Assembly (NCBI RefSeq): GCF_900112025.1
Contig: NZ_FOKL01000001.1
Span: 797,084 to 861,083 of the forward strand
Length of the DNA stretch: 64,000 nt
DNA from: Janthinobacterium sp. 344
GTDB lineage: Bacteria > Pseudomonadota > Gammaproteobacteria > Burkholderiales > Burkholderiaceae_D
Reading direction: 5' to 3'
In this document: piece by piece, positions 42,129 to 53,372 of the stretch
How positions within the stretch are numbered: position 1 is the stretch's first letter
Layout of the letters: each line of letters starts with the position of its first letter
Translations under genes and position numbers: made by a program
The notes under the pieces: generated by a model
The model's input: only the letters and a program-made list of their open reading frames with translations
The model's database searches: none
Told to the model about the DNA's origin: nothing

Positions 42129-43157
42129 TCAGGCGGAACCATCGAATCGAATGTCGTAATGCATGTCGTCTCGGTCGCGGGCCGACAGCTTGCCGGCCAG
42201 AAAAGCATCCTCCGCCAGGCAGGCGCCCATGCCCAGCACGCAGGTGCGCACGTCTTCCCGGCGCAGCACCAGGCGTATTTCAAAGCTCATGCCGGGCAAG
42301 CCGAACAGCGCCAGCATCTGGCGCAGGGCCAGCGCGCCGGGCCGGCCTGGCAAGAAATCCGCGTAGGCGCGGCGCTCCAGCGGCCCCAGCACCAGGCGCA
42401 CGCGCAGGTCGGCGCGCCGGCAGCGCTCGCCCAGCATGGCGCCTTGTCCCAGCCGCACGTTGGCGCTCGCCAGCAAGGTGCGTTCCTGCGGCGCGCGCCG
42501 GATCCAGGCGCCAATAAACCGCTGCAAGCGCACGGGCACGCCGAAATACCCGGCCAGGACCGCCTGCATCACTTCGGCCGCCGCGGGACGATGCCGCAGC
42601 ACGGCCGCGTAATAGGCCAGCGCATGCGCGGGCAAGCCATCGGCCTGCCGCGCCACCTGGGCAGGCCATGCGCCCGCCAGGGCCAGTTGCAAGGGCAGGA
42701 AATCGCCGCCATCGGCATCCTGCTGACATTCGATGCGGTAACGTGCCCAGGCCTGGTAAAACAGGGCCAGCGCGCGGAACGACAGCGTATCGAGCCAATC
42801 ACGGGGACCGTCATCGCCCGTTTGCCGCTCGTGGCGGGCCAGCGTTTCCGTGTAATGCAGCGGCAAGCTCCCATGCACGCCCAGAAAACCCAGCATCGCT
42901 GCCCGCACATGCACCTGCATATCGCCGTTGGCCTGCGGCTCCAGCCACAGTTGTTCGATTTCACCCGGCGCAAACGACAGCGATGCGCTGCCATGCAGGC
43001 GCAGGCAATCATCAAACACCTGCTCCCGTGAGATACCCTGCTGCATCAGCCAGGCAGACAGCAGGCGCACTGCCTGAAAGAAACCGGTGCCGGACGGGTC
43101 GGCCAGCAGGCGCGCGACTACACCAGTGTCTGGCTTCCATTGCGTGGCAGGCAACAC
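42129..43157 (-). CDS. tssG: Type VI secretion baseplate subunit TssG
   Basis: 342 residues. It shows typical TssG segments (GTGFFQAVRLLSAWL, LGFLGVHGSLPLHYTE, FRALALFYQAWARYRIE, GYFGVPVRLQRFIGAWI). It forms the baseplate wedge with TssF and TssK. Its start overlaps the end of tssF by 40 bp, showing translational coupling. The remaining core T6SS genes (tssA-E, H-M) are not in this window and must lie elsewhere. Confidence 0.92.
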   Translation of the reverse strand: MLPATQWKPDTGVVARLLADPSGTGFFQAVRLLSAWLMQQGISREQVFDDCLRLHGSASLSFAPGEIEQLWLEPQANGDMQVHVRAAMLGFLGVHGSLPLHYTETLARHERQTGDDGPRDWLDTLSFRALALFYQAWARYRIECQQDADGGDFLPLQLALAGAWPAQVARQADGLPAHALAYYAAVLRHRPAAAEVMQAVLAGYFGVPVRLQRFIGAWIRRAPQERTLLASANVRLGQGAMLGERCRRADLRVRLVLGPLERRAYADFLPGRPGALALRQMLALFGLPGMSFEIRLVLRREDVRTCVLGMGACLAEDAFLAGKLSARDRDDMHYDIRFDGSA

Positions 43158-44950
43158 AGCAACTCCTTTCCTGTCTTCTGCGACAAGACGATCAGGCGGG
43201 TAAACGAGCCCAGGTGTACATACAGCCCGAGAAAGCGTTCGATCACCTGGGCAAAAGCGTGCAAGCCGCTGCCGACAAAGGCTTCCTCATCGACGGACAG
43301 CAGGACGTCGATGCCGAAGACGAGGCTGCCGCCCGCCTCGTCGTGCAGCCAGGTACTGGCGGCGCGCTGGCGCAGTCCCGTCAAGCCCGCGATCTGGCGC
43401 GCGGCGCTGGCCGAACCGGGCAAGTTGTACAACTCGAGTATTTGTTTGAGGAGCGGCAAGCCCTGTTCACTGAGCGACTGATGGTTCAGCGACAATTGCG
43501 CGATCAGCCGCCAGTGCGACGACGCACCCGCAGGGAAGCGGCACTGCGCGCTGGGCTTGCGCAGCAGGCGCACCGGCAAGGCGCTGGCCACGCCGTCATG
43601 GTGCAAATCGCCCGCGGCGTTGCCGAACACCAGGCGGCTCGGCAAATCGCGGTTGCTGCAGGTCAGCATGATGGACACCGTTTGCGTGGCGTCGTGCAGC
43701 GGCTGCATGGCGCCGTCGACAAAGGCGATGCGCATGTCGTAACCGGGATTGCTCAACGCCATGTCCTCGTCGCGCCGCGTTACCCAGTAGCGCCCCTGGC
43801 GGCCACCCGCCTCGCCGTGGCGCATCGAATAAAATGGGTGGAACGCGTCCAGCGTGCCGCCCTGCGCCGTTTCACCGAGCACCTGCACACTGTCGACGCT
43901 GTGGATATCGTAGCAATGCGCCTGCCTGACCGATGGCAGCAACACATGCTCGGCGCTCGCGTGCGTCAGGCGGATGGGGTTGGCCGCCTGGCGGAACAGG
44001 TTGACGACGGGCGTGCATCCCGTTAGCAGATGCCTGGCGGACAGAGGCCGCAGGATGCGCGCGATATCCGCATCGGCCTGCACGTCGGCCAGCAGCAGGT
44101 GCACCGTGCAGCGCCGGCATGCCGGAGGCAACAGCGGGCGCAGCGCGGCCAGATCCAGGTCGACGAAATTGAATTTATCCGGGAAGGCAAACCATTCGCC
44201 CAGCAGGCGGTAGGCGGGATGCGAGGCGGCCATGGCCGGCATCAAGGCATCCTCGGCGGCAAAGCCGGCCGGATGAAAGGGTGGCGCCTCCAGGGCCTGC
44301 CAGGCGCCGTCGGCTTCCACATAGGCACAACGCGCACGCAGGAACAGGCTGTCGCGCAAGGCGGCGCAAAAGGAAGACTCGCCATTGAGGAACAGGCGCA
44401 GCGCCGGCAGCGGCAGCGTCTCCAGCGTGGACGTAGCGCCCGTCGCTTCGAGCGTGATGCTGATCGCCGCCCCCACGTCCGGCGGCAGGCGCACTGCGGG
44501 CGGCGCCGCCACGATGGACTGGAAGCGCACCTCGGACAGGCGCAGCGGTGCCACGGCAACGTCATACGCGGTGGTGAACTTGCAGGCGACGCCCTGATGC
44601 TCCGCTGCATGCATGACCGTGCCGCGCGGAATGGTGGCCAGCTCGGTCACCGTGGCAAGGTCGTTATCGATGCGGGCAATGGCGCAGGCAGGAAACGGGC
44701 GCAAATAATGGGGAAAATTAACTTCCAGCAACGTTTCGCTGAAGGTGCCAAAGCCATCGGCCAGCCGCTTGGCCGTGCGCGCGTTGAACATGGCAAACGC
44801 CTGCAGCATGCGCGCCAGGTGCGGGTCGCCCATTTCGCCACCCAGGATGCCCAGCGCGCCGGCGATGGCCGGATAGCGGCGGGAAAACGCCTGATTATGC
44901 GCATGCAAGGTGCCCAGTTCGCGCTCGTAATATTGCAGCAACTCGTCCAT
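43118..44950 (-). CDS. tssF: Type VI secretion baseplate subunit TssF
   Basis: 610 residues. The ATG at 44950 (GGGAG six bases upstream) begins the conserved DELLQYYERELGTLHAHNQ start of the family; upstream in-frame starts at 44962 and 45061 fit less well. It contains ALGILGGEMGDPHLARMLQA, PHYLRPFPACAI and, near the C-terminus, FAQVIERFLGLYVHLGSFTR. It is first of the minus-strand T6SS run tssF-tssG-vgrG-tle3-tla3-tla3-PAAR. It is divergent from the Ser/Thr kinase gene. Confidence 0.92.
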   Translation of the reverse strand: MDELLQYYERELGTLHAHNQAFSRRYPAIAGALGILGGEMGDPHLARMLQAFAMFNARTAKRLADGFGTFSETLLEVNFPHYLRPFPACAIARIDNDLATVTELATIPRGTVMHAAEHQGVACKFTTAYDVAVAPLRLSEVRFQSIVAAPPAVRLPPDVGAAISITLEATGATSTLETLPLPALRLFLNGESSFCAALRDSLFLRARCAYVEADGAWQALEAPPFHPAGFAAEDALMPAMAASHPAYRLLGEWFAFPDKFNFVDLDLAALRPLLPPACRRCTVHLLLADVQADADIARILRPLSARHLLTGCTPVVNLFRQAANPIRLTHASAEHVLLPSVRQAHCYDIHSVDSVQVLGETAQGGTLDAFHPFYSMRHGEAGGRQGRYWVTRRDEDMALSNPGYDMRIAFVDGAMQPLHDATQTVSIMLTCSNRDLPSRLVFGNAAGDLHHDGVASALPVRLLRKPSAQCRFPAGASSHWRLIAQLSLNHQSLSEQGLPLLKQILELYNLPGSASAARQIAGLTGLRQRAASTWLHDEAGGSLVFGIDVLLSVDEEAFVGSGLHAFAQVIERFLGLYVHLGSFTRLIVLSQKTGKELLCCLPRNGSQTLV

Positions 44951-45116
44951 GTCCGCTCCCATCACCCGATCCGCACATGCCGATGCAGCCCCATCTGCAT
45001 TATTGAGGAAGCGGGAAAAGGAAAATTGAGTTTGAACAAGATTGCGCGCATGCGTCAACAAGGCATGTCATGCCAGCGCTGGCACCTCACTTTTGTTCAC
45101 TCCTTGCCAATATTAA

Positions 45117-45244: not shown

Positions 45245-47485
45245 ATGGAACTGCTCGACTCCCTGCGTCAGCCCTCGTTGCAAGACGGCACTATCAGTGG
45301 TCACTATGAAGTGCGCCGCTTGCTGGGCGAAGGCGGTTTCGGCCATGTATTCGAGGCCTGGGATGCCAAGCTGTGCCGTAGCGTGGCGCTGAAGCGGCTG
45401 AAACCGCAAGCGGACGTGCTGCATCCCGAAAAACTCATCAATGAAGCGCGCCTGGCCGCCTCGCTCAAGCATGCCGCCTTCGTGCGCATCTTTGCCATCG
45501 AGGGCCAGGGCACGAGCCAGTCCATCATCATGGAACTGGTCGAAGGCCAGACCCTGGGGCAATTCATGCACAGCGGCAAGGCTGACGTGCAGGCCGCGCT
45601 CGACATCGCCTACCAGATCGCCGACGCCATGGACGAGGCGCACGCCATGGACCTCGTCCATGGCGATTTGAAACCGTCGAACCTGATGCTGGAGGCGGAT
45701 GGCAAGGTGCGCATCCTCGACTTCGGCCTGGCGCGCCACATCGACCCGCAAGCGACGCAAACGACCACCCTGTGCGACTTGCAGGGCACCATCGCCTACA
45801 TGGCGCCCGAGCGCCTGATGGGCCGCCTGCCCGACACGCGCGGCGACGTGTATGCCTTGGGCGCCATGCTGTACGAAATGCTGGCCGGCCAGCGCCACTT
45901 CGCCCACCTGAACGGCCTGGCCCTGGCCGCCGCCCATATGCAGGCGACGGAGCCGTGGCCCGACCTGCCGGACTCCGTCCCGCCCGCCATCAACGCCCTC
46001 GTGCGCGCGATGACGGCGCACGACCCGGCCGAACGGCCACGCACCATGCGCGACGTGCGCGAGGCGATTGGCGCGCAGCGCGGCGAGCCGCTCCCCCTGG
46101 CCACGCCCCTTGCCGACGAGACACCCGCGCAGGAAGAACCGCCCGCCAGCGTCTCCATCCGCCTGCCCCTGCCCCGCAAGCGCACGCTGAAATGGGGCGC
46201 GGGCGTGGCCCTGCTGGCCGTCCTGGCGGGATGGCAGCTGCCCAATATCATTCCTGCCGTCAAATCGTTCGTCACGGGTGAAAAGGCTCCCGCGCCGTAT
46301 TCGGAAATGGCCAGCATGGCGGCGGGGATGGAGGCGTTGCGGGTGTTTGATCGCGACTCCAGTCAGGAACAAGCAATCGCCCACTTCAGCACAGTACTTA
46401 AACACAATCCTGCCAACGCCGCCGCCTCGGCGGGCCTGTCGCTGGCCTCTAGCCTGCGTTACATCGGCAATGGCCGCGATGATACTTGGCTGCAGCGGGC
46501 GGACGCTGGCGCACAACAGGCGCTTGCCCTGGACAATCAATTGGCATTGGCCCACGTGGCCCATGCCTGGGTGCTTGAATTTCAAGGCAAGCGGGACGAT
46601 GCGCTGGAAGCATCTGCCAAGGCCCTGAACCTGGATCCGCAGAACTTATTGGGACTCGTCGGCAAGGCACGCCAGTTGATTCATCTTAAAAAATTTGACC
46701 CGGCCAAAACAGTACTCGACGATGCGGCCGCTCTGTACCCCAAAGAGCGGTTGTTCCCGTCGCTGCAGGGAACAATGTTATTTAGGCAAGCAAAATACGC
46801 GGGGGCGGAACAGGCGTTTCGCAAAAGCATAGCGCTTGATCCGCGCTCAACCAATGGCTACGCCTATCTGAGTGCAGTCCTCTTGCGCCAAGACCGGAAT
46901 GACGAAGCCTTGCGCGTCTTACAGCAAGGCTTGCAATTCCAGCCGCACTGGGAACTGTATAACAATCTGGGCGCATCGCTGTTCGCCAAGGCCGACTATC
47001 TGGGCGCCGTGCAGGCCTTTGAAAAGGCCGTGTCCTCCAGCAAAGGTAATCCTGGCGCCTATCTCTTATGGGCGAATCTTGCCGATGCTCAACGTTGGAT
47101 ACCTGCACAGGCCGAAGCCTCGCAACGCTCTTACCAACGCGCTACCGAATTGCTTGCCCCAATCCTGGCGCGCATTCCTGACGATGCCACGGTCAACTCT
47201 CGTATGGCCTTGTATTCAGCCTATATAGGCGCAAAGAAAGAAGCCGTGGAGAAGGTCGGCAAAGCCCTCGCCAACTCAGCAAGCCAGCCCGACATTCAAT
47301 TCCGGGCAGCCTTGACCCATGAGCTGATCGGCAACCGTGATGCAGCCATGATGGCGCTACTGGAGGCCGCCAAGCTCGGCTACCCAATCAATCTGATCGA
47401 AACAGCACCCGATCTGTTGAACCTAAGGCGAGATGCTCGCTACCAGCAGTTTATTATCAACTTAAAAAGAGATCGTAAAACATGA
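45245..47485 (+). CDS. Membrane Ser/Thr protein kinase with C-terminal TPR repeats
   Basis: 746 residues. The kinase domain (about 20-280) has glycine loop GEGGFG (28-33), Lys50 in VALKRL, catalytic HGDLKPSN (139-146), DFG (159-161) and APE (187-189). The catalytic motif has Gly instead of Arg before Asp, so it is a non-RD kinase. One membrane helix lies at about 316-334. Tetratricopeptide-like repeats from about 355 to the end would then be outside the cytoplasm. GC content falls in the TPR half. The stop overlaps the next start (ATGA), so the 189-residue protein is co-translated. Its position before the peptide cassette suggests a sensing or control role (inference). Confidence 0.92.
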   Translation: MELLDSLRQPSLQDGTISGHYEVRRLLGEGGFGHVFEAWDAKLCRSVALKRLKPQADVLHPEKLINEARLAASLKHAAFVRIFAIEGQGTSQSIIMELVEGQTLGQFMHSGKADVQAALDIAYQIADAMDEAHAMDLVHGDLKPSNLMLEADGKVRILDFGLARHIDPQATQTTTLCDLQGTIAYMAPERLMGRLPDTRGDVYALGAMLYEMLAGQRHFAHLNGLALAAAHMQATEPWPDLPDSVPPAINALVRAMTAHDPAERPRTMRDVREAIGAQRGEPLPLATPLADETPAQEEPPASVSIRLPLPRKRTLKWGAGVALLAVLAGWQLPNIIPAVKSFVTGEKAPAPYSEMASMAAGMEALRVFDRDSSQEQAIAHFSTVLKHNPANAAASAGLSLASSLRYIGNGRDDTWLQRADAGAQQALALDNQLALAHVAHAWVLEFQGKRDDALEASAKALNLDPQNLLGLVGKARQLIHLKKFDPAKTVLDDAAALYPKERLFPSLQGTMLFRQAKYAGAEQAFRKSIALDPRSTNGYAYLSAVLLRQDRNDEALRVLQQGLQFQPHWELYNNLGASLFAKADYLGAVQAFEKAVSSSKGNPGAYLLWANLADAQRWIPAQAEASQRSYQRATELLAPILARIPDDATVNSRMALYSAYIGAKKEAVEKVGKALANSASQPDIQFRAALTHELIGNRDAAMMALLEAAKLGYPINLIETAPDLLNLRRDARYQQFIINLKRDRKT

Positions 47486-48051
47486 CGCCTGTCAGCCCCT
47501 GGATGAAATTATCCGTACACTTTGATGTAGATCAGATCACAAACCAGCTCGACTATAACTTTACCTCATGCGACGGCACGGCGGATCCGCGCCATGGCCC
47601 GTACATGGGTGGCGTGCACTTCCAGCAAGGTCAACATGTGTACCTGGACGTCACTTGCTGCGGCTCCGAGAAAAGCGGCTTCACCTCGTTCCAGATCGTC
47701 GATTGCTGCATCATCAGCGTGCCGCAACTGACGCAAATCGGCCCGAAAGTACCGACCGTATACTCCCCTCCCTCACCATTCCTGCAAGCCGTGGGGGCCA
47801 CCTACAGCTTGCCACTGGACTTCGAGGCCAAGGTATTGCTGGGAGAACAGGGAGACCCTGCCCAGCCGCCACTGCGCCGCATCCTCCAGGCGTGGAAACA
47901 TAACCTCGACGTAGGCTATGCAACGGGACGCTGGGAATTATCTTTCGTCATGACAGTGCGAATTATGCGCGGCGAAGGCGTGCAGCCCGAATTGCGCGTC
48001 TTTTCCTTCGACCCGGAAAGTTCGGTTGGCGGAACCTATGACTGGAACTAA
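47482..48051 (+). CDS. Protein of unknown function ending in a peptide-like tail (PESSVGG..DWN)
   Basis: 189 residues, no signal peptide, four close cysteines (TSCDGT, VTCCGS, VDCCII). Translation is coupled to the kinase by an ATGA overlap. The last 12 residues, PESSVGGTYDWN, match the mature part of the small peptides encoded just downstream (PEASVGGNSDWN in the first one). At DNA level, CCGGAAAG(T/C)TCGGTTGGCGGA is shared with the last peptide gene at 20 of 21 bases. Unlike the peptides it has no double-glycine leader. It may be a partner, immunity or substrate-mimic protein; the function is unknown. Confidence 0.85.
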   Translation: MTPVSPWMKLSVHFDVDQITNQLDYNFTSCDGTADPRHGPYMGGVHFQQGQHVYLDVTCCGSEKSGFTSFQIVDCCIISVPQLTQIGPKVPTVYSPPSPFLQAVGATYSLPLDFEAKVLLGEQGDPAQPPLRRILQAWKHNLDVGYATGRWELSFVMTVRIMRGEGVQPELRVFSFDPESSVGGTYDWN

Positions 48052-48136: not shown

Positions 48137-48226
48137 ATGCAAGAATTGAACTTTGAAGAAATTGAGATAGTATCCGGTGGCAATATGCCTGAAGCCTCGG
48201 TGGGTGGCAACTCCGACTGGAACTAA
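48137..48226 (+). CDS. Double-glycine leader peptide 1
   Basis: 29 residues: leader MQELNFEEIEIVSGG, then NMPEASVGGNSDWN. Hydrophobic residues at -15, -12, -7 and -4 from the GG fit the consensus recognised by C39 peptidase-exporters. Ribosome site AAGGTG. An in-frame longer reading from 48026 overlaps the preceding gene and is rejected, because the ATG at 48137 starts exactly where all seven paralogues start. Confidence 0.85.
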   Translation: MQELNFEEIEIVSGGNMPEASVGGNSDWN

Positions 48227-48363
48227 ACGAGCGAGCCAGATTACATCTTAAAAGTAGGGAAAAAGAAAGACTGAGATCTTTCTGCCTCCTCTTGCCATCG
48301 AAAGAAAACCATCTTGTGATAAATTTAATTTCGCAATCCACCTAAAAAAATGGAGTAACCGAC

Positions 48364-48453
48364 ATGCAAGAATTAAACTTTGAAGAAATCGAAGTAGTCT
48401 CCGGCGGGAACATGCCAGAATCTTCAGTTGGCGGTTCGTCGGACTGGGGTTGA
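48364..48453 (+). CDS. Double-glycine leader peptide 2
   Basis: 29 residues: leader MQELNFEEIEVVSGG, then NMPESSVGGSSDWG. Ribosome site GGAG. The 3' end and downstream bases (TTGATATTATC) are shared with peptide 5, showing duplication. The 137 bp between peptides 1 and 2 are AT-rich, with a small AGAAAGA/TCTTTCT hairpin and no other gene. Confidence 0.85.
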   Translation: MQELNFEEIEVVSGGNMPESSVGGSSDWG

Positions 48454-48528
48454 TATTATCCAGCATGCGCGCGACTTGCCATACGCATCATTCCATATGA
48501 AAAGCAACTTCATCATTAAGGAAACAAC

Positions 48529-48615
48529 ATGCAAGAATTAAACACACACGAAATCGAAGTAGTATCCGGTGGAAACATGCCTGAAAGCTCCGTCGGCGGC
48601 GATACAGGCGGCTAA
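48529..48615 (+). CDS. Double-glycine leader peptide 3
   Basis: 28 residues: leader MQELNTHEIEVVSGG, then NMPESSVGGDTGG, lacking the Trp found in most siblings. Ribosome site AAGGAA. It is followed directly by the decayed transporter relic. Confidence 0.82.
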   Translation: MQELNTHEIEVVSGGNMPESSVGGDTGG

Positions 48616-48649
48616 ATTTAACTCCATTGATTGCAACTCCACAGAGTCC

Positions 48650-48893
48650 TCGTTTTACAGATCCTCTTCAGCACCACGAGCAAGGCGTAGTCGCAGGGCG
48701 TGCTGCTGCCGACCAGCCGCGTCATCGCCGGGGTGCGCGTCTAGGAGGGACAGGCCGTGCGCGCGGGCGAGGTGCTGTTCGTACTGTCGGGGGAGTGCAG
48801 CAGTGCCAATGCGGGGGCGCCCCAGCAGGTTGTTTCGACCCTGCTGAAAAGCCGGCGCGACAGCTATGACGCGCAATTGCAGCAGTCGCGCCA
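48650..48893 (+). pseudogene. Relic of a HlyD-type adaptor gene
   Basis: Closely similar to part of the intact adaptor gene (about 49920-50190): shared stretches include GGGCGTGCTGCTGCCGACCA and GAAAAGCCGGCGCGACAGCT. Compared with the intact copy it has a TAG in place of a CAA codon, a deletion of roughly 30 bp, and a second in-frame TAG in place of AAG. It lacks the start and most of the gene. It joins without a gap to a relic of the exporter gene, so one large deletion removed the middle of an adaptor-exporter pair. Confidence 0.85.
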
Positions 48894-49055
48894 GTTACCT
48901 TCCAGGTCTGCGCGCACTTGGCCGCCGTGCATGCAGAAATCGCCACCATGCCGACGGCCTTCCTACCTTGCTGGGCGATGGCGCAGCGGGTGGTGGCATT
49001 GCAACAGAGGGGAATCGTGCAGGATGTGATGCAGGAAACCCAGGCCACCGCTTAA
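48894..49055 (+). pseudogene. Relic of the C39 ABC exporter gene, 3' fragments
   Basis: Two short blocks match the intact exporter: one around 52855-52920 (CGCGCAC-TGGC/G-GCCGTGCATG region) and one from about 53110 to its stop, including GTGCAGGATGTGATGCAGGA. About 200 bp between them are missing. The stop codon and the following 60 bp up to peptide 4 match the intact exporter's own downstream sequence leading to peptide 7. No functional product is expected. Confidence 0.85.
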
Positions 49056-49133
49056 AGCTTAGCATACGGCAAGAATTGTCTTACGATGGATTAGGTTTGC
49101 AATTTCGCAAGTCTTAATTGTGAGGTGACAGCG

Positions 49134-49220
49134 ATGCAAGAATTAAACATCAACGAAATCGAGGAAGTCTCGGGCGGCTTGTTGCCGGAAGCGTCGATAG
49201 GTGGCCACACCGATACGTAA
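49134..49220 (+). CDS. Double-glycine leader peptide 4
   Basis: 28 residues: leader MQELNINEIEEVSGG, then LLPEASIGGHTDT. It belongs with peptide 7 (EEVSGG leader; both sit just after an exporter gene or its relic with a near-identical 60-bp upstream region). Ribosome site GAGGTG. The core lacks Trp. Confidence 0.82.
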   Translation: MQELNINEIEEVSGGLLPEASIGGHTDT

Positions 49221-49303
49221 ACCGTACGGGCACAGAAAGACCCGGCCATACATCCTGTTGGTGCGACTTGTTCATCTTAATCTTGAAAACTGAGGTAAAT
49301 ACC

Positions 49304-49393
49304 ATGCAAGAATTAAACGTCAACGAAATCGAAGTAGTATCCGGTGGAAATATGCCTGAAGGCTCAGTTGGCGGTTCGTTGGACTGGAGTTGA
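49304..49393 (+). CDS. Double-glycine leader peptide 5
   Basis: 29 residues: leader MQELNVNEIEVVSGG, then NMPEGSVGGSLDWS. Ribosome site GAGGT. Its 3' end and flank repeat those of peptide 2. Confidence 0.83.
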   Translation: MQELNVNEIEVVSGGNMPEGSVGGSLDWS

Positions 49394-49536
49394 TATTATC
49401 TACGGCACGGGCGCTGGGAAGCGCCTCTATTGCACCGGCGCCTGCCATAATAAATCTATGCTTTTTTAACAATTGCTTTACGATGTTGTTGTTGCAAAAA
49501 TACGTAAATTCTTATGACATCACCAAGGAGCAGAGC

Positions 49537-49623
49537 ATGCAAGAATTAAACACGAACGAAATCGACGCTGTGGCAGGTGGCCTGCTGCCGGAAAGCTCTG
49601 TTGGCGGCGATACCAACTGGTAA
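49537..49623 (+). CDS. Double-glycine leader peptide 6
   Basis: 28 residues: leader MQELNTNEIDAVAGG, then LLPESSVGGDTNW. Ribosome site AAGGAG, the strongest in the family. A longer in-frame reading from 49390 is rejected because only the ATG at 49537 has a ribosome site and the family start. The intact adaptor gene follows after 110 bp. Confidence 0.85.
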   Translation: MQELNTNEIDAVAGGLLPESSVGGDTNW

Positions 49624-49733
49624 GGCTGAGGCCCAAGCCATACCCTTGCAAATAACTGCGCTGGCGAACCACGAGCCTGTCAATACCACGGCTGTCGTCC
49701 TTACAGCCCTCATTCCCTGAAAAGTCCATCATC

Positions 49734-51041
49734 TTGCGTGACCAATCCAGCGATCCGACTGCCGCCACCAGCCCCGCCCCGCCCATCCAGCCACTGTTCC
49801 GCCAGCAAGCCATCGAGCATCTGAGCAACAAGCAATACGGCACGGTGCTGCTGGCGCGGCCCGTCAGCCATCTGTTCCTGACCTGCCTGTTCCTGGGCAT
49901 CGCGCTGGCCATCGTCGCTTTCTTCATCTTCTTCAGCACCACGCGCAAGGCGCAATCGCAGGGCGTGCTGCTGCCGACCAGCGGCGTGATTCGCGTCATG
50001 CCGGGGCAGTCTGGCGTCATTACCGAAGCGCGCGTGAAGGAAGGCCAGAGCGTGCGGGCGGGCGAGGTACTGTTCGTGCTGTCGGGCGAGCGCAGCAGCG
50101 CCAATGCCGGAGCGCCCCAGCAAGTCGTTTCGGACTTATTGAAAAGCCGGCGCGACAGCTATGACGCGGAATTGCAGCAGTCGCGCCTGCAATCGCGCCA
50201 GCGCATGGCGGCCGGCCAACGCCGCGCCAGGGACCTGGCGGCCGAGATCGCCCGCATGGACGACCAGATCGTGCTGCAGCAGCGCCGCATCACCCTGGCC
50301 GAGCAGTCCTATAAACGCTATAGCGATCTGCACGCCACCAATTACATTTCATCCGCACAATTGCAGGATAAGCAGGCCGAACTGCTGGACCAGCACCAGC
50401 GCCTGGGGGAGTTGCAGCGCATCAAGTCGGCCAACCAGCGCGACCTGGCCACCACGGAAGCGGACGTGCGCGACTTGCAGGTGCAGGCGCAGCGCGATAC
50501 GCAAGACTTGCAGCGCAACGCAACGGAGATCGAGCAGGAACTCACCGAAAACGAAGCGCGCCGCGAAATTCTCGTGCGCGCGGCGCAGGATGGCATGGTC
50601 ACGGCCATCACCACCGAACTGGGCCAGACCGTGGCGGCCAACAGCGTACTGGCCTCCGTGCTGCCGCAAGGCGCCCAGCTGGAGGCGGAAATCTATGCGC
50701 CGTCGCGCTCGGTCGGCTTCATCCAGCCGGGCATGACGGTGCTGCTGCGCTACCAGGCGTATCCGTACCAGAAATTCGGCCAGTATCCGGCGCTGGTGCG
50801 CGAAGTGGCCAGCACCTCGCTGCGGCCCGAAGAGCTGGCGGTGCCGGGCGCCGTCAGCGGCACGAATGGCGAACCCTTGTACCGCATCCGTTTGACCTTG
50901 CAGCGCCAAAGCGTGCAGGCGTATGGCGAAACGCTGCCGTTGAAGTCGGGCATGCTGGTCGACGCCAGCGTGCTGCTGGAACAGCGGCGCCTGTATGAAT
51001 GGGTGCTCGAACCGCTGTTCAGCATTTCCGGGCGCTTGTAA
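49734..51041 (+). CDS. HlyD-family periplasmic adaptor of the peptide exporter
   Basis: 435 residues from a TTG at 49734; no in-frame ATG or GTG is available before the conserved region, and the ribosome site is weak. One membrane helix (about 46-68) is followed by a lipoyl/barrel-sandwich half (GVIRVMPGQSGVITEARVKEG... and SVRAGEVLFVLSGE). A long coiled coil follows (about 130-290), then the second lipoyl half and a beta-barrel (VRAAQDGMVTAI, FIQPGMTVLLRYQAYPY). It links an inner-membrane exporter to an outer-membrane channel, which is not encoded here (TolC is the likely partner). It precedes the C39 exporter by 27 bp. Confidence 0.9.
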   Translation: MRDQSSDPTAATSPAPPIQPLFRQQAIEHLSNKQYGTVLLARPVSHLFLTCLFLGIALAIVAFFIFFSTTRKAQSQGVLLPTSGVIRVMPGQSGVITEARVKEGQSVRAGEVLFVLSGERSSANAGAPQQVVSDLLKSRRDSYDAELQQSRLQSRQRMAAGQRRARDLAAEIARMDDQIVLQQRRITLAEQSYKRYSDLHATNYISSAQLQDKQAELLDQHQRLGELQRIKSANQRDLATTEADVRDLQVQAQRDTQDLQRNATEIEQELTENEARREILVRAAQDGMVTAITTELGQTVAANSVLASVLPQGAQLEAEIYAPSRSVGFIQPGMTVLLRYQAYPYQKFGQYPALVREVASTSLRPEELAVPGAVSGTNGEPLYRIRLTLQRQSVQAYGETLPLKSGMLVDASVLLEQRRLYEWVLEPLFSISGRL

Positions 51042-51068
51042 GCCCCATATTGATCTTCCACAATACTC

Positions 51069-53204
51069 ATGCACCTTCCTGATCTTGCCCACCTGTCCTT
51101 CTGGCGCAGCCAGCGCCTGCCCGTCCTGCTGCAAACGGAAGCGGCCGAATGCGGCCTGGCCTGCCTGTCGATGGTGGCCAGCTACTGGGGCCACCAGACC
51201 GATATTTCCAGCATGCGCCGGCGTTTTTCCGTCTCCCTCAAGGGCGTGACTTTAAAAGGGCTGATGGCGATGGCGCAGGGGCTGGCGCTGCATACGCGGC
51301 CATTAAAGCTCGACATGCAGCATCTGCCCGAGCTGAAGCTGCCCGCCATCCTGCACTGGGACTTGAACCATTTCGTCGTGCTCAAGTCCGTCTCCGGCAG
51401 CCATGTGGTGATCCACGACCCGGCCGTGGGCGAGCGCCGCCTGGCGCTGGCGGAAGTGGCGAAACACTTTACGGGCGTGGCGCTGGAGCTGACGCCCACC
51501 GCCGAGTTCAAGAAGGCCGAAGAAAAGCAGCAGTTTTCCCTGCTGTCGCTGATGGGACGCGTGGTGGGCCTGAAGCGCGGCCTGCTGCAATTGCTGGTGC
51601 TGGGCCTGGCCCTGCAGGTATGCGCGCTGGTGGCGCCGTTCTACATGCAGTGGCTGGTCGACGAGGCGCTGCTGGCCGCCGACCGCGACCTGATCACCGT
51701 GCTCGGTTGCGGCTTCTTGCTGCTGGTGCTGGTGCAGACGGCCATCGGCGCCGTGCGTTCCTGGATCACCACCGTGCTGGCCACGAATTTGAACTTGCAA
51801 TGGCTGGGCAATGCCTTCGCCCACCTTTTAAAGTTGCCGCTGCCGTATTTCGAGAAGCGCCACACGGGTGACATCGTCTCGCGCTTCAACTCCATCCAGA
51901 CCATGCAGCGCAGCCTGACGACGCAATTCGTCGAAGGCGCCATCGATGGCGTGCTGGTGCTGGCCACCCTGGGCATGATGTTGTTCTACAGCCCGCTGCT
52001 GGCGGGCGTGGCCTGCATCGCCGTGCTGCTGTATGTCTTGCTGCGCTGGGCCCTGTTCAAGGCCATGCGCGAAGCGACGGCCGAACAGATCATCCACGCG
52101 GCAAAACAGCAGACGCACTTCCTGGAATCGGTGCGCGGCATCCAGAGCATCCGCCTGTTCGGCCGCGCCGCCGAGCGCCGCGCCAGCTGGACCAATGCGC
52201 TGGCCGACCAGTTCAACGCCGACCTGCGCATCGCGCGCTTGTCAGTGTCGTACCAGACGGCCAATACTTTTCTGTTCAGCGCCGAACGGGTGATCGTCAT
52301 CTGGATGGCGGCGCTGGCCGTGCTGGACAACCGTTTTTCGGTGGGCATGCTGTTTGCCTTCATCAGCTACAAGGACCAGTTCAGCCAGCGCATGGCCAGC
52401 CTGGTCGACAAACTGTTCGAGCTGCGCATGCTGCGCCTGCATGGCGAGCGCGTCGCCGACATTGTCCTGACGGATGCGGAAGAAAACGGCAGCGACGTCG
52501 AGGTGGACATGGACGATATCTCGCCATCGATTGAGATCCGCAACATCACCTTCCGCTATGCCGCCAGCGAACCGAATGTCTTGAGCGGCCTCAATTTGCA
52601 CATTCCCGCTGGCCAGTGCATCGCCGTCACCGGCCCGTCCGGCTGCGGCAAGACGACGCTCATGAAATTGCTATTGGGCTTGCTGGAACCGACGGAAGGC
52701 GAAATCCTCATCGGCGGTATCCAGCTGGGCAGCCTGGGCTTGGCGAACTACCGGCAATTGCTGGGCACGGTCATGCAGGAAGACACCCTGTTTGCCGGCT
52801 CCATCGCCGACAACATCAGCTTTTTTGCCCCCTCCCCCAATTACCAGCAGGTGCAGGCTTGCGCGCACCTGGCGGCCGTGCATGGGGAAATCGCCGCCAT
52901 GCCGATGGCCTTCAACACCCTGGTGGGCGATATCGGCAGCGGCCTGTCCGGCGGCCAAAAACAGCGCATCCTGCTGGCGCGCGCCCTATATAAAAACCCA
53001 AAGCTGCTGGTGCTCGACGAAGCGACCAGCCACCTGGACACGCGCAACGAACAGGCCGTGAACGCGGCGATCCGGAAAATCCAGCTCACGCGCGTGATCG
53101 TTGCGCATCGCCCGGAAACCATCGCCATGGCGCAAAGGGTGGTGATGCTGCAGCAGGGGAAAATCGTGCAGGATGTGATGCAGGAAACGCAGGCAGCCGC
53201 TTAA
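51069..53204 (+). CDS. C39 peptidase-containing ABC exporter (PCAT) for double-glycine peptides
   Basis: 711 residues. The N-terminal C39 cysteine peptidase is complete: Gln22 and Cys28 in QTEAAECGLACL, His101 in HWDLNHFVVL, Asp117 in VIHDPAVG. The six-helix exporter domain (about 165-440) precedes the ATPase with Walker A GPSGCGKTT (near 521), signature LSGGQKQR (near 625), Walker B LLVLDEATS and IVAHRPET. It resembles CvaB/RaxB exporters that cut leaders after Gly-Gly while secreting the peptide. The adjacent seven peptide genes with matching leaders are its evident substrates. It is followed by peptide 7. Confidence 0.95.
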   Translation: MHLPDLAHLSFWRSQRLPVLLQTEAAECGLACLSMVASYWGHQTDISSMRRRFSVSLKGVTLKGLMAMAQGLALHTRPLKLDMQHLPELKLPAILHWDLNHFVVLKSVSGSHVVIHDPAVGERRLALAEVAKHFTGVALELTPTAEFKKAEEKQQFSLLSLMGRVVGLKRGLLQLLVLGLALQVCALVAPFYMQWLVDEALLAADRDLITVLGCGFLLLVLVQTAIGAVRSWITTVLATNLNLQWLGNAFAHLLKLPLPYFEKRHTGDIVSRFNSIQTMQRSLTTQFVEGAIDGVLVLATLGMMLFYSPLLAGVACIAVLLYVLLRWALFKAMREATAEQIIHAAKQQTHFLESVRGIQSIRLFGRAAERRASWTNALADQFNADLRIARLSVSYQTANTFLFSAERVIVIWMAALAVLDNRFSVGMLFAFISYKDQFSQRMASLVDKLFELRMLRLHGERVADIVLTDAEENGSDVEVDMDDISPSIEIRNITFRYAASEPNVLSGLNLHIPAGQCIAVTGPSGCGKTTLMKLLLGLLEPTEGEILIGGIQLGSLGLANYRQLLGTVMQEDTLFAGSIADNISFFAPSPNYQQVQACAHLAAVHGEIAAMPMAFNTLVGDIGSGLSGGQKQRILLARALYKNPKLLVLDEATSHLDTRNEQAVNAAIRKIQLTRVIVAHRPETIAMAQRVVMLQQGKIVQDVMQETQAAA

Positions 53205-53282
53205 CTCTTGGCATGCAGCAAGAATTGTTTTACGATGGATTAGATTTGCAATTTCGCAAGTCTTATTCGTGAGGTGAAAGCT

Positions 53283-53372
53283 ATGCAAGAATTAAACGGC
53301 AGTGAAATCGAGGAAGTCTCTGGCGGGTTGATGCCGGAAAGCTCGGTTGGCGGATCGTCGACTTACGGGTAA
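53283..53372 (+). CDS. Double-glycine leader peptide 7
   Basis: 29 residues: leader MQELNGSEIEEVSGG, then LMPESSVGGSSTYG (Tyr instead of Trp). Ribosome site GAGGTG. It lies 78 bp after the exporter stop. Its core DNA is nearly identical to the tail of the 189-residue protein. Confidence 0.84.
   Translation: MQELNGSEIEEVSGGLMPESSVGGSSTYG

Follow-up and report, generated by a model that had tools for sequence, protein, structure and literature searches.

In the 64,000-nucleotide stretch of the Janthinobacterium sp. 344 genome analysed here (the window), seven double-glycine peptide genes surround the intact genes of an HlyD-type periplasmic adaptor and a C39 peptidase-containing ABC exporter (PCAT); two genes upstream of the first of them lies the gene of a Ser/Thr protein kinase with tetratricopeptide repeats (TPR), and between the two a gene for a 189-residue protein, p189 (Table 1). 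The peptide genes are all intact and 28–29 codons long, running from an ATG to a stop codon in each case, and encode a 15-residue leader and a predicted product of 13–14 residues. In all seven the leader has the form MQELNxxEI(E/D)xV(S/A)GG, with M, L, I and V at positions -15, -12, -7 and -4, and the peptides end in PExS(V/I)GG followed by four or five further residues. The array thus shows what is expected of C39/PCAT substrates, namely a GG leader with hydrophobic residues at -4, -7, -12 and -15, encoded beside a C39-ABC exporter. The original prediction, made from the sequence alone, had described the seven genes with their common leader, its hydrophobic positions, the intact exporter and adaptor among them and the unusual shortness of the predicted products for double-glycine C39-type peptides, all of which is borne out by the reading frames, the leader sequences, the pattern counts given below and the Pfam matches; it had overlooked that the peptide motif is the C-terminus of p189, the upstream kinase gene, and a decayed exporter copy at 48661–49055.

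Table 1. Features of the array locus. Coordinates are positions in the window; for each peptide, a slash separates the leader from the predicted product. ORF, open reading frame.
Feature	Coordinates	Strand	Basis and remarks
Ser/Thr protein kinase with TPR, 746 residues	45245..47485	+	Pfam Pkinase 3.8e-46, TPR families; hydropathy; TPR model
p189, 189-residue beta-sandwich protein	47482..48051	+	ORF; AF2 pLDDT 86.4; start codon overlaps kinase stop by 4 nt
p189 C-terminal tail, DPESSVGG + TYDWN	48010..48048	+	Sequence; motif copied by peptides
Peptide 1, MQELNFEEIEIVSGG / NMPEASVGGNSDWN	48137..48226	+	ORF, sequence
Peptide 2, MQELNFEEIEVVSGG / NMPESSVGGSSDWG	48364..48453	+	ORF; core and 3' flank homologous to 3' end of p189 of genome G030
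Peptide 3, MQELNTHEIEVVSGG / NMPESSVGGDTGG	48529..48615	+	ORF, sequence
Decayed second HlyD/C39 exporter copy, internally deleted	48661..49055	+	blastn 78-85% to 49926-50187, 52854-52942, 53124-53289
Peptide 4, MQELNINEIEEVSGG / LLPEASIGGHTDT	49134..49220	+	ORF; tail identical to p189 tail of genome G004
Peptide 5, MQELNVNEIEVVSGG / NMPEGSVGGSLDWS	49304..49393	+	ORF, sequence
Peptide 6, MQELNTNEIDAVAGG / LLPESSVGGDTNW	49537..49623	+	ORF, sequence
HlyD-type periplasmic adaptor	49734..51041	+	Pfam HlyD_3 1e-13; intact; TTG start as listed
C39 peptidase-containing ABC exporter (PCAT)	51069..53204	+	Pfam Peptidase_C39 3.5e-36, ABC_membrane, ABC_tran; intact
Peptide 7, MQELNGSEIEEVSGG / LMPESSVGGSSTYG	53283..53372	+	ORF, sequence

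Chance reading frames are ruled out by genome-wide pattern counts and by the pattern of selection. In the 6.44 Mb genome (27 contigs), a degenerate DNA pattern for the leader start has seven matches, all at the array locus, against none for the reversed control, and the core pattern PExS[V/I]GG has eight, the seven peptides and the p189 tail, against one for its control. Over 29 peptides from four genomes, the leader and the core have low ratios of nonsynonymous to synonymous polymorphism (pN/pS 0.28 and 0.32), consistent with purifying selection on both, and the last residues stand at 0.86. A profile search of related genomes, proposed earlier as a check, recovered homologous arrays adjoining the same exporter in three further genomes of the genus, making four of 40 with this one; these hold 7, 7, 7 and 8 peptides, and the exporter is intact in all four. 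Ten of the 40 genomes gave peptide-profile matches: four to complete peptides, five to the leader part only and one to the core part, which is its p189 tail. Across the family, 8 of 294 genomes (a draw that did not include the array genome G030) matched at E <= 1e-4, three with complete peptides, all of the same genus, and five with the leader only. The array of genome G034 (L040, 6398–7401) is interrupted by two opposite-strand ORFs that are transposase-like in appearance. Upstream of peptide 7 lies a promoter-like match, TTGGCA-17-TACGAT, at 53208–53236, and similar sequence precedes peptide 4; the peptides may be transcribed separately.

As read from the sequence, the motif of the mature peptides, PExSVGG plus a few variable residues, is a copy of the C-terminal tail of p189, which ends in FDPESSVGGTYDWN. 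Of the 40 genus genomes 34 have p189, and 32 of these have a close orthologue (at least 76% identity); in 30 of 30 close orthologues among those listed, those of peptide-free genomes included, the tail is kept and its last residues are hypervariable. Homologues of p189 occur in 45 of 294 family genomes (E <= 1e-8), and DPExx[V/I] follows the p189 body in 25 of 26 distant ORFs read. As to the earlier remark that no described family with this sequence was known, no curated family lies above cut-off in NCBIfam (six of the seven peptides scanned) or in Pfam (two of the seven), but the core is no orphan, since it copies the tail of p189. With the same six peptides, the best bacteriocin profile, TIGR03949, reached 18.2 bits against a cut-off of 21.5, mostly over the leader, and the pheromone VP1 (NF033772) 14 bits against 85; the motif strings had no occurrence in the open-access literature searched.

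The strongest argument for a role of this motif comes from the kinase, to which PExx[V/I], judged by its distribution, is tied as an independent short module. The kinase comprises a kinase domain (residues ~20–270), an RKR followed by a predicted transmembrane helix (~318–338) and a TPR superhelix (~354–746), whose model has a pLDDT of 90.9 and is matched best in the PDB by TPR superhelices, among them that of O-GlcNAc transferase; the TPR domain is predicted to lie on the outer face of the inner membrane. The transmembrane region is kept in 15 of 16 distant homologues read (hydropathy at least 1.5), the exception being a broken gene. The TPR domain, found in 70 of 288 family genomes (E <= 1e-60), is more widespread than p189. 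At 16 loci chosen by a TPR-domain match alone, with no p189 known there, the next gene ends in xPExx[V/I] in 14 cases, and the bodies of these 14 partners give no p189-profile match or a marginal one (E 0.003–0.005, four stretches in three proteins); no Pfam family scored above cut-off in the ten partner proteins scanned from these loci. When 28 loci found through p189 itself, hence a biased set, are pooled with these, a TPR-kinase is followed by an ORF ending in xPExx[V/I] at 42 of 44 loci; among the 1719 ORFs of at least 100 codons in the pooled loci, 46 end in this way, 42 of which are the kinase partners and four of which fall among the other 1677. Eight of the nine loci read in one genus, g11, encode a partner with two copies of the motif, the second of PExx[V/I] type and usually MPExxV, the form in the peptides.

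The second copy in g11 (L138–L145) follows a linker of about 15–22 residues and is degenerate in L142, and L146 has a single copy only; in L145 the TPR-kinase is broken into several frames and the partner ORF is still open. The two exceptions among the 44 loci, L196 and L197, each hold three TPR-kinase genes close to one that encodes a protein of 456–460 residues; a catalytic-loop motif is missing from four of the six kinases. Within the genus the kinase gene is a mosaic, with a mean third-codon-position distance of 0.17 in the kinase domain and 0.56 in the TPR part. We discarded a phage-defence kinase as an identification, because the PADLOC matches (PD-T4-6, mad6) lie mainly over the generic kinase domain. 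Upstream of the kinase gene, and divergent from it, are genes for TssF and TssG of a type VI secretion system (42129–45061); this upstream position is taken by an aminotransferase gene in some sister genomes (e.g. L047, L101, L104).

No Pfam or NCBIfam family matches p189. Its best Foldseek matches in the PDB are PixA proteins (E from 3.7e-4), so that p189 may be called PixA/AidA-like weakly and by modelled structure only; the sequence model PF12306 matched neither p189 at E up to 10 nor any of 30 members at E up to 1. The AF2 model puts residues 179–183 in a strand, and with this fold the tail could be the last strand of a PixA-like sandwich, which the peptides would cap or swap, altering the assembly of p189 and leaving the kinase aside. 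We hold this to be very improbable: the last block of the model has low confidence (mean pLDDT 57), and a motif found at the end of partners that differ from p189 in size and sequence, with a second copy beyond a linker in g11, is better described as a free linear motif.

Tails are also shared between p189 and the peptides. The 31 p189 tails comprise 27 distinct sequences and the 29 peptide tails 28. Five variants, HTDT, NGSL, SIDM, TLGVD and TFGLG, are common to the two sets, each time between different genomes; when residues are shuffled within positions, the mean number shared is 0.23, and five was reached in 0 of 20000 shuffles. The DNA beyond the tails agrees as well. Over the first 20 nt downstream of the gene, p189 of G030 agrees with the SSDWG peptide of G030 at 17 positions and with that of G000 at 16, and the flank of the HTDT peptide agrees with that of the G038 p189 at 15. 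The null maximum was 14 (200 shuffles), and no other of the 899 pairs exceeded it. Moreover, the 3' end of the G030 p189 gene is homologous to peptide cassettes of G000 through tail, stop codon and following stretch (176 nt, 85%). G036 lacks an array; its p189 ends in the tail TLGVD, and this tail, with the DNA that follows it towards mutS, is similar to the end of the G030 array, where the last peptide also carries TLGVD, as would be expected if arrays come and go by recombination within the motif; this case is only suggestive, since much of the flank is shared by synteny. To judge from the DNA flanks, p189 ends and peptide genes show exchange. This raises an alternative in which the array is mainly a store of alternative tails for recombination into the p189 3' end, comparable to the orphan C-terminal cassettes of polymorphic proteins, with secretion secondary; the G030 and G036 cases and the tail variants common to p189 and peptides all speak for it. 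A pure store, however, needs no start codon, leader or exporter, yet pN/pS in the leader is 0.28 and the exporter is intact in the four array genomes, and in no array genome is its own p189 tail identical to a peptide tail (by inspection; not significant). We regard this alternative as unlikely.

The original prediction had called the exporter dedicated, but it is not unique to these peptides. Five other genomes of the genus have exporters 92–97% identical to it and a sixth has one of 88% identity; those of G016 (93%) and G028 (92%) adjoin bacteriocin-like GG precursors of 46–52 residues. Close relatives beside such precursors indicate that leader and exporter are of bacteriocin type and here serve a new cargo. 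Relatives of the C39/HlyD exporter, at L041, L042, L046, L096 and L099, adjoin other small GG precursors of about 40–52 residues that are bacteriocin-like by eye. NHLP bacteriocin export does not fit the transporter, which scores 492 against a cut-off of 853 bits (TIGR03796) and 371 against 709 (TIGR03797), far below both. From the decayed exporter copy and the 85% identity between the stretches preceding peptides 4 and 7, it follows that at least part of the array arose when exporter and peptide were duplicated together.

The company kept by these exporters in G016 and G028 also favours the possibility that the peptides are very small antimicrobials, class II microcin-like, which kill or inhibit competitors, perhaps by jamming the contact between kinase and p189; that the arrays represent tail types of other species would suit this too. 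Against it, inspection of the ORFs of the window and of L038–L040, the small ones not being screened for membrane helices, showed no immunity candidate in the array; G028, by contrast, has a 115-residue ORF, hydrophobic by eye, between precursors and exporter. Verified class II microcin precursors measure 75–120 residues, and the published pipeline keeps sequences of 30–150 (PMC9746304); precursors of 28–29 residues lie below the former and would fall outside the latter. An antimicrobial role seems to us distinctly unlikely. A modified peptide was rejected on the ground that the stretch from the kinase to mutS has only p189, HlyD and C39-ABC as large genes and, as had been noted before, no modification enzyme, the remaining window not having been searched for one. 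Of the roles listed originally, signal, antimicrobial or assembly subunit, nothing was found in support of the last, and the choice narrows towards a ligand or mimic of the p189 tail.

The seven genes are best explained, at about an even chance in our judgement, as leader-fused, exported copies of the tail of the kinase's partner, which would address the TPR receptor kinase as ligands or as decoys. The gene structure, the motif identity, the genomic tie to TPR-kinases, the selection on leader and core, and the shared tails can be read from the sequences; the course of processing, secretion, binding and effect that follows is inferred. Cleavage after GG would fall to the C39 domain, and peptides of 13–14 residues would leave through the exporter and an outer-membrane channel whose gene lies elsewhere. 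The TPR domain, on its predicted outer face, would recognise the PExxVG tail, with the variable end setting specificity, and the secreted copies would act on TPR-kinases, either the producer's own or those of relatives with other tails, as agonist or competitor ligands. As tails move between p189 and peptide genes by recombination, the array would come to represent a secreted repertoire of tail types.

Co-variation between tail and TPR domain bears on the step of recognition. Among 31 genomes, mean amino-acid distance rises from 0.056 in the kinase domain through 0.18 in the p189 body and 0.34 in the TPR domain to 0.70 in the tail. With the kinase domain and the body of p189 partialled out, tail distance correlates with TPR distance (r 0.40, p 0.0003), and the correlation persists when third-codon-position distances, those of the TPR included, are also removed (r 0.19, p 0.0017), whereas the value for tail and p189 body, given TPR and kinase, is 0.005. 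Because the p189 body lies between TPR and tail on the chromosome, simple linkage is not an easy explanation of the correlation.

Several observations weigh against the peptides being ligands or decoys of the kinase. A correlation with the tail is likewise found for the third-position distance of the TPR (r 0.34); part of the signal, and perhaps much of it, is accordingly co-inheritance of the locus and not binding specificity. The TPR may simply be the better clock, and the TPR columns most associated with the tail show no enrichment on the presumed concave face (p 0.67). In some sister genomes the transmembrane helix is predicted only marginally: over 19 residues, the highest hydropathy is 1.3–1.8 in the four genus members looked at. 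Six TPR-kinases at two loci stand without a tail partner, and complete peptides occur in only four of the 40 genus genomes. Finally, p189 has no obvious signal peptide (by eye), though the TPR domain that would read its tail is predicted to be extracytoplasmic; it is possible that the two meet through release by lysis or another export route.

A more specific form of the ligand reading, which we put forward tentatively and consider doubtful, is polymorphic recognition: the p189 tail would be a species or strain tag, the TPR-kinase its reader, and the peptides a collection of other species' tags, put together and reshuffled through recombination with p189 ends and secreted to address, deceive or silence the kinases of relatives. 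The locus displays a new cargo for bacteriocin-type export, a leader fused to the end of a cellular protein, and makes the PExxVG tail a candidate ligand for a set of uncharacterised bacterial receptor kinases.

Compared with known systems, GG peptides with C39 exporters are a known kind, and it is the cargo and its tie to a receptor kinase that match no family in the Pfam and NCBIfam searches. The array resembles class II microcins and GG bacteriocins with PCAT in its GG leader with the expected hydrophobic positions, its C39-ABC exporter and its HlyD adaptor; it differs in a core copied from a neighbouring cellular protein and in its precursor length (28–29 residues against 75–120 in verified class II microcins, PMC9746304). 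The PixA/AidA family (PF12306) supplies the best structural matches of p189, which, unlike that family, has no sequence match to the Pfam model and has a conserved PExxVG tail tied to a TPR-kinase gene. EbfG of Synechococcus and Nap of Neisseria are likewise small GG-motif proteins with a shown or predicted dependence on a C39-type peptidase and with non-killing roles. They differ from the array peptides in their cores. Both are larger, and we know of no kinase-partner tail for either.

TPR receptors that respond to peptide signals have been described in Gram-positive bacteria and in phages of these. In the RRNPP systems, TPR receptors of short secreted peptides are established, and the array is like Rap-Phr and AimR-AimP in its short, predicted secreted peptides near a TPR receptor gene, with a variable peptide end and a diverging receptor. 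It differs in its Gram-negative host, its C39 export and the full-size protein with the same tail, and, whereas the RRNPP receptor is cytoplasmic, the one here is a membrane Ser/Thr kinase with its TPR predicted outside. By analogy, the array would work most like an RRNPP system but departs from that class in a receptor predicted not to be cytoplasmic. If the ligand reading is true, a receptor kinase, its tail-bearing partner and secreted copies of the tail would together form a new, Gram-negative counterpart of TPR peptide signalling.

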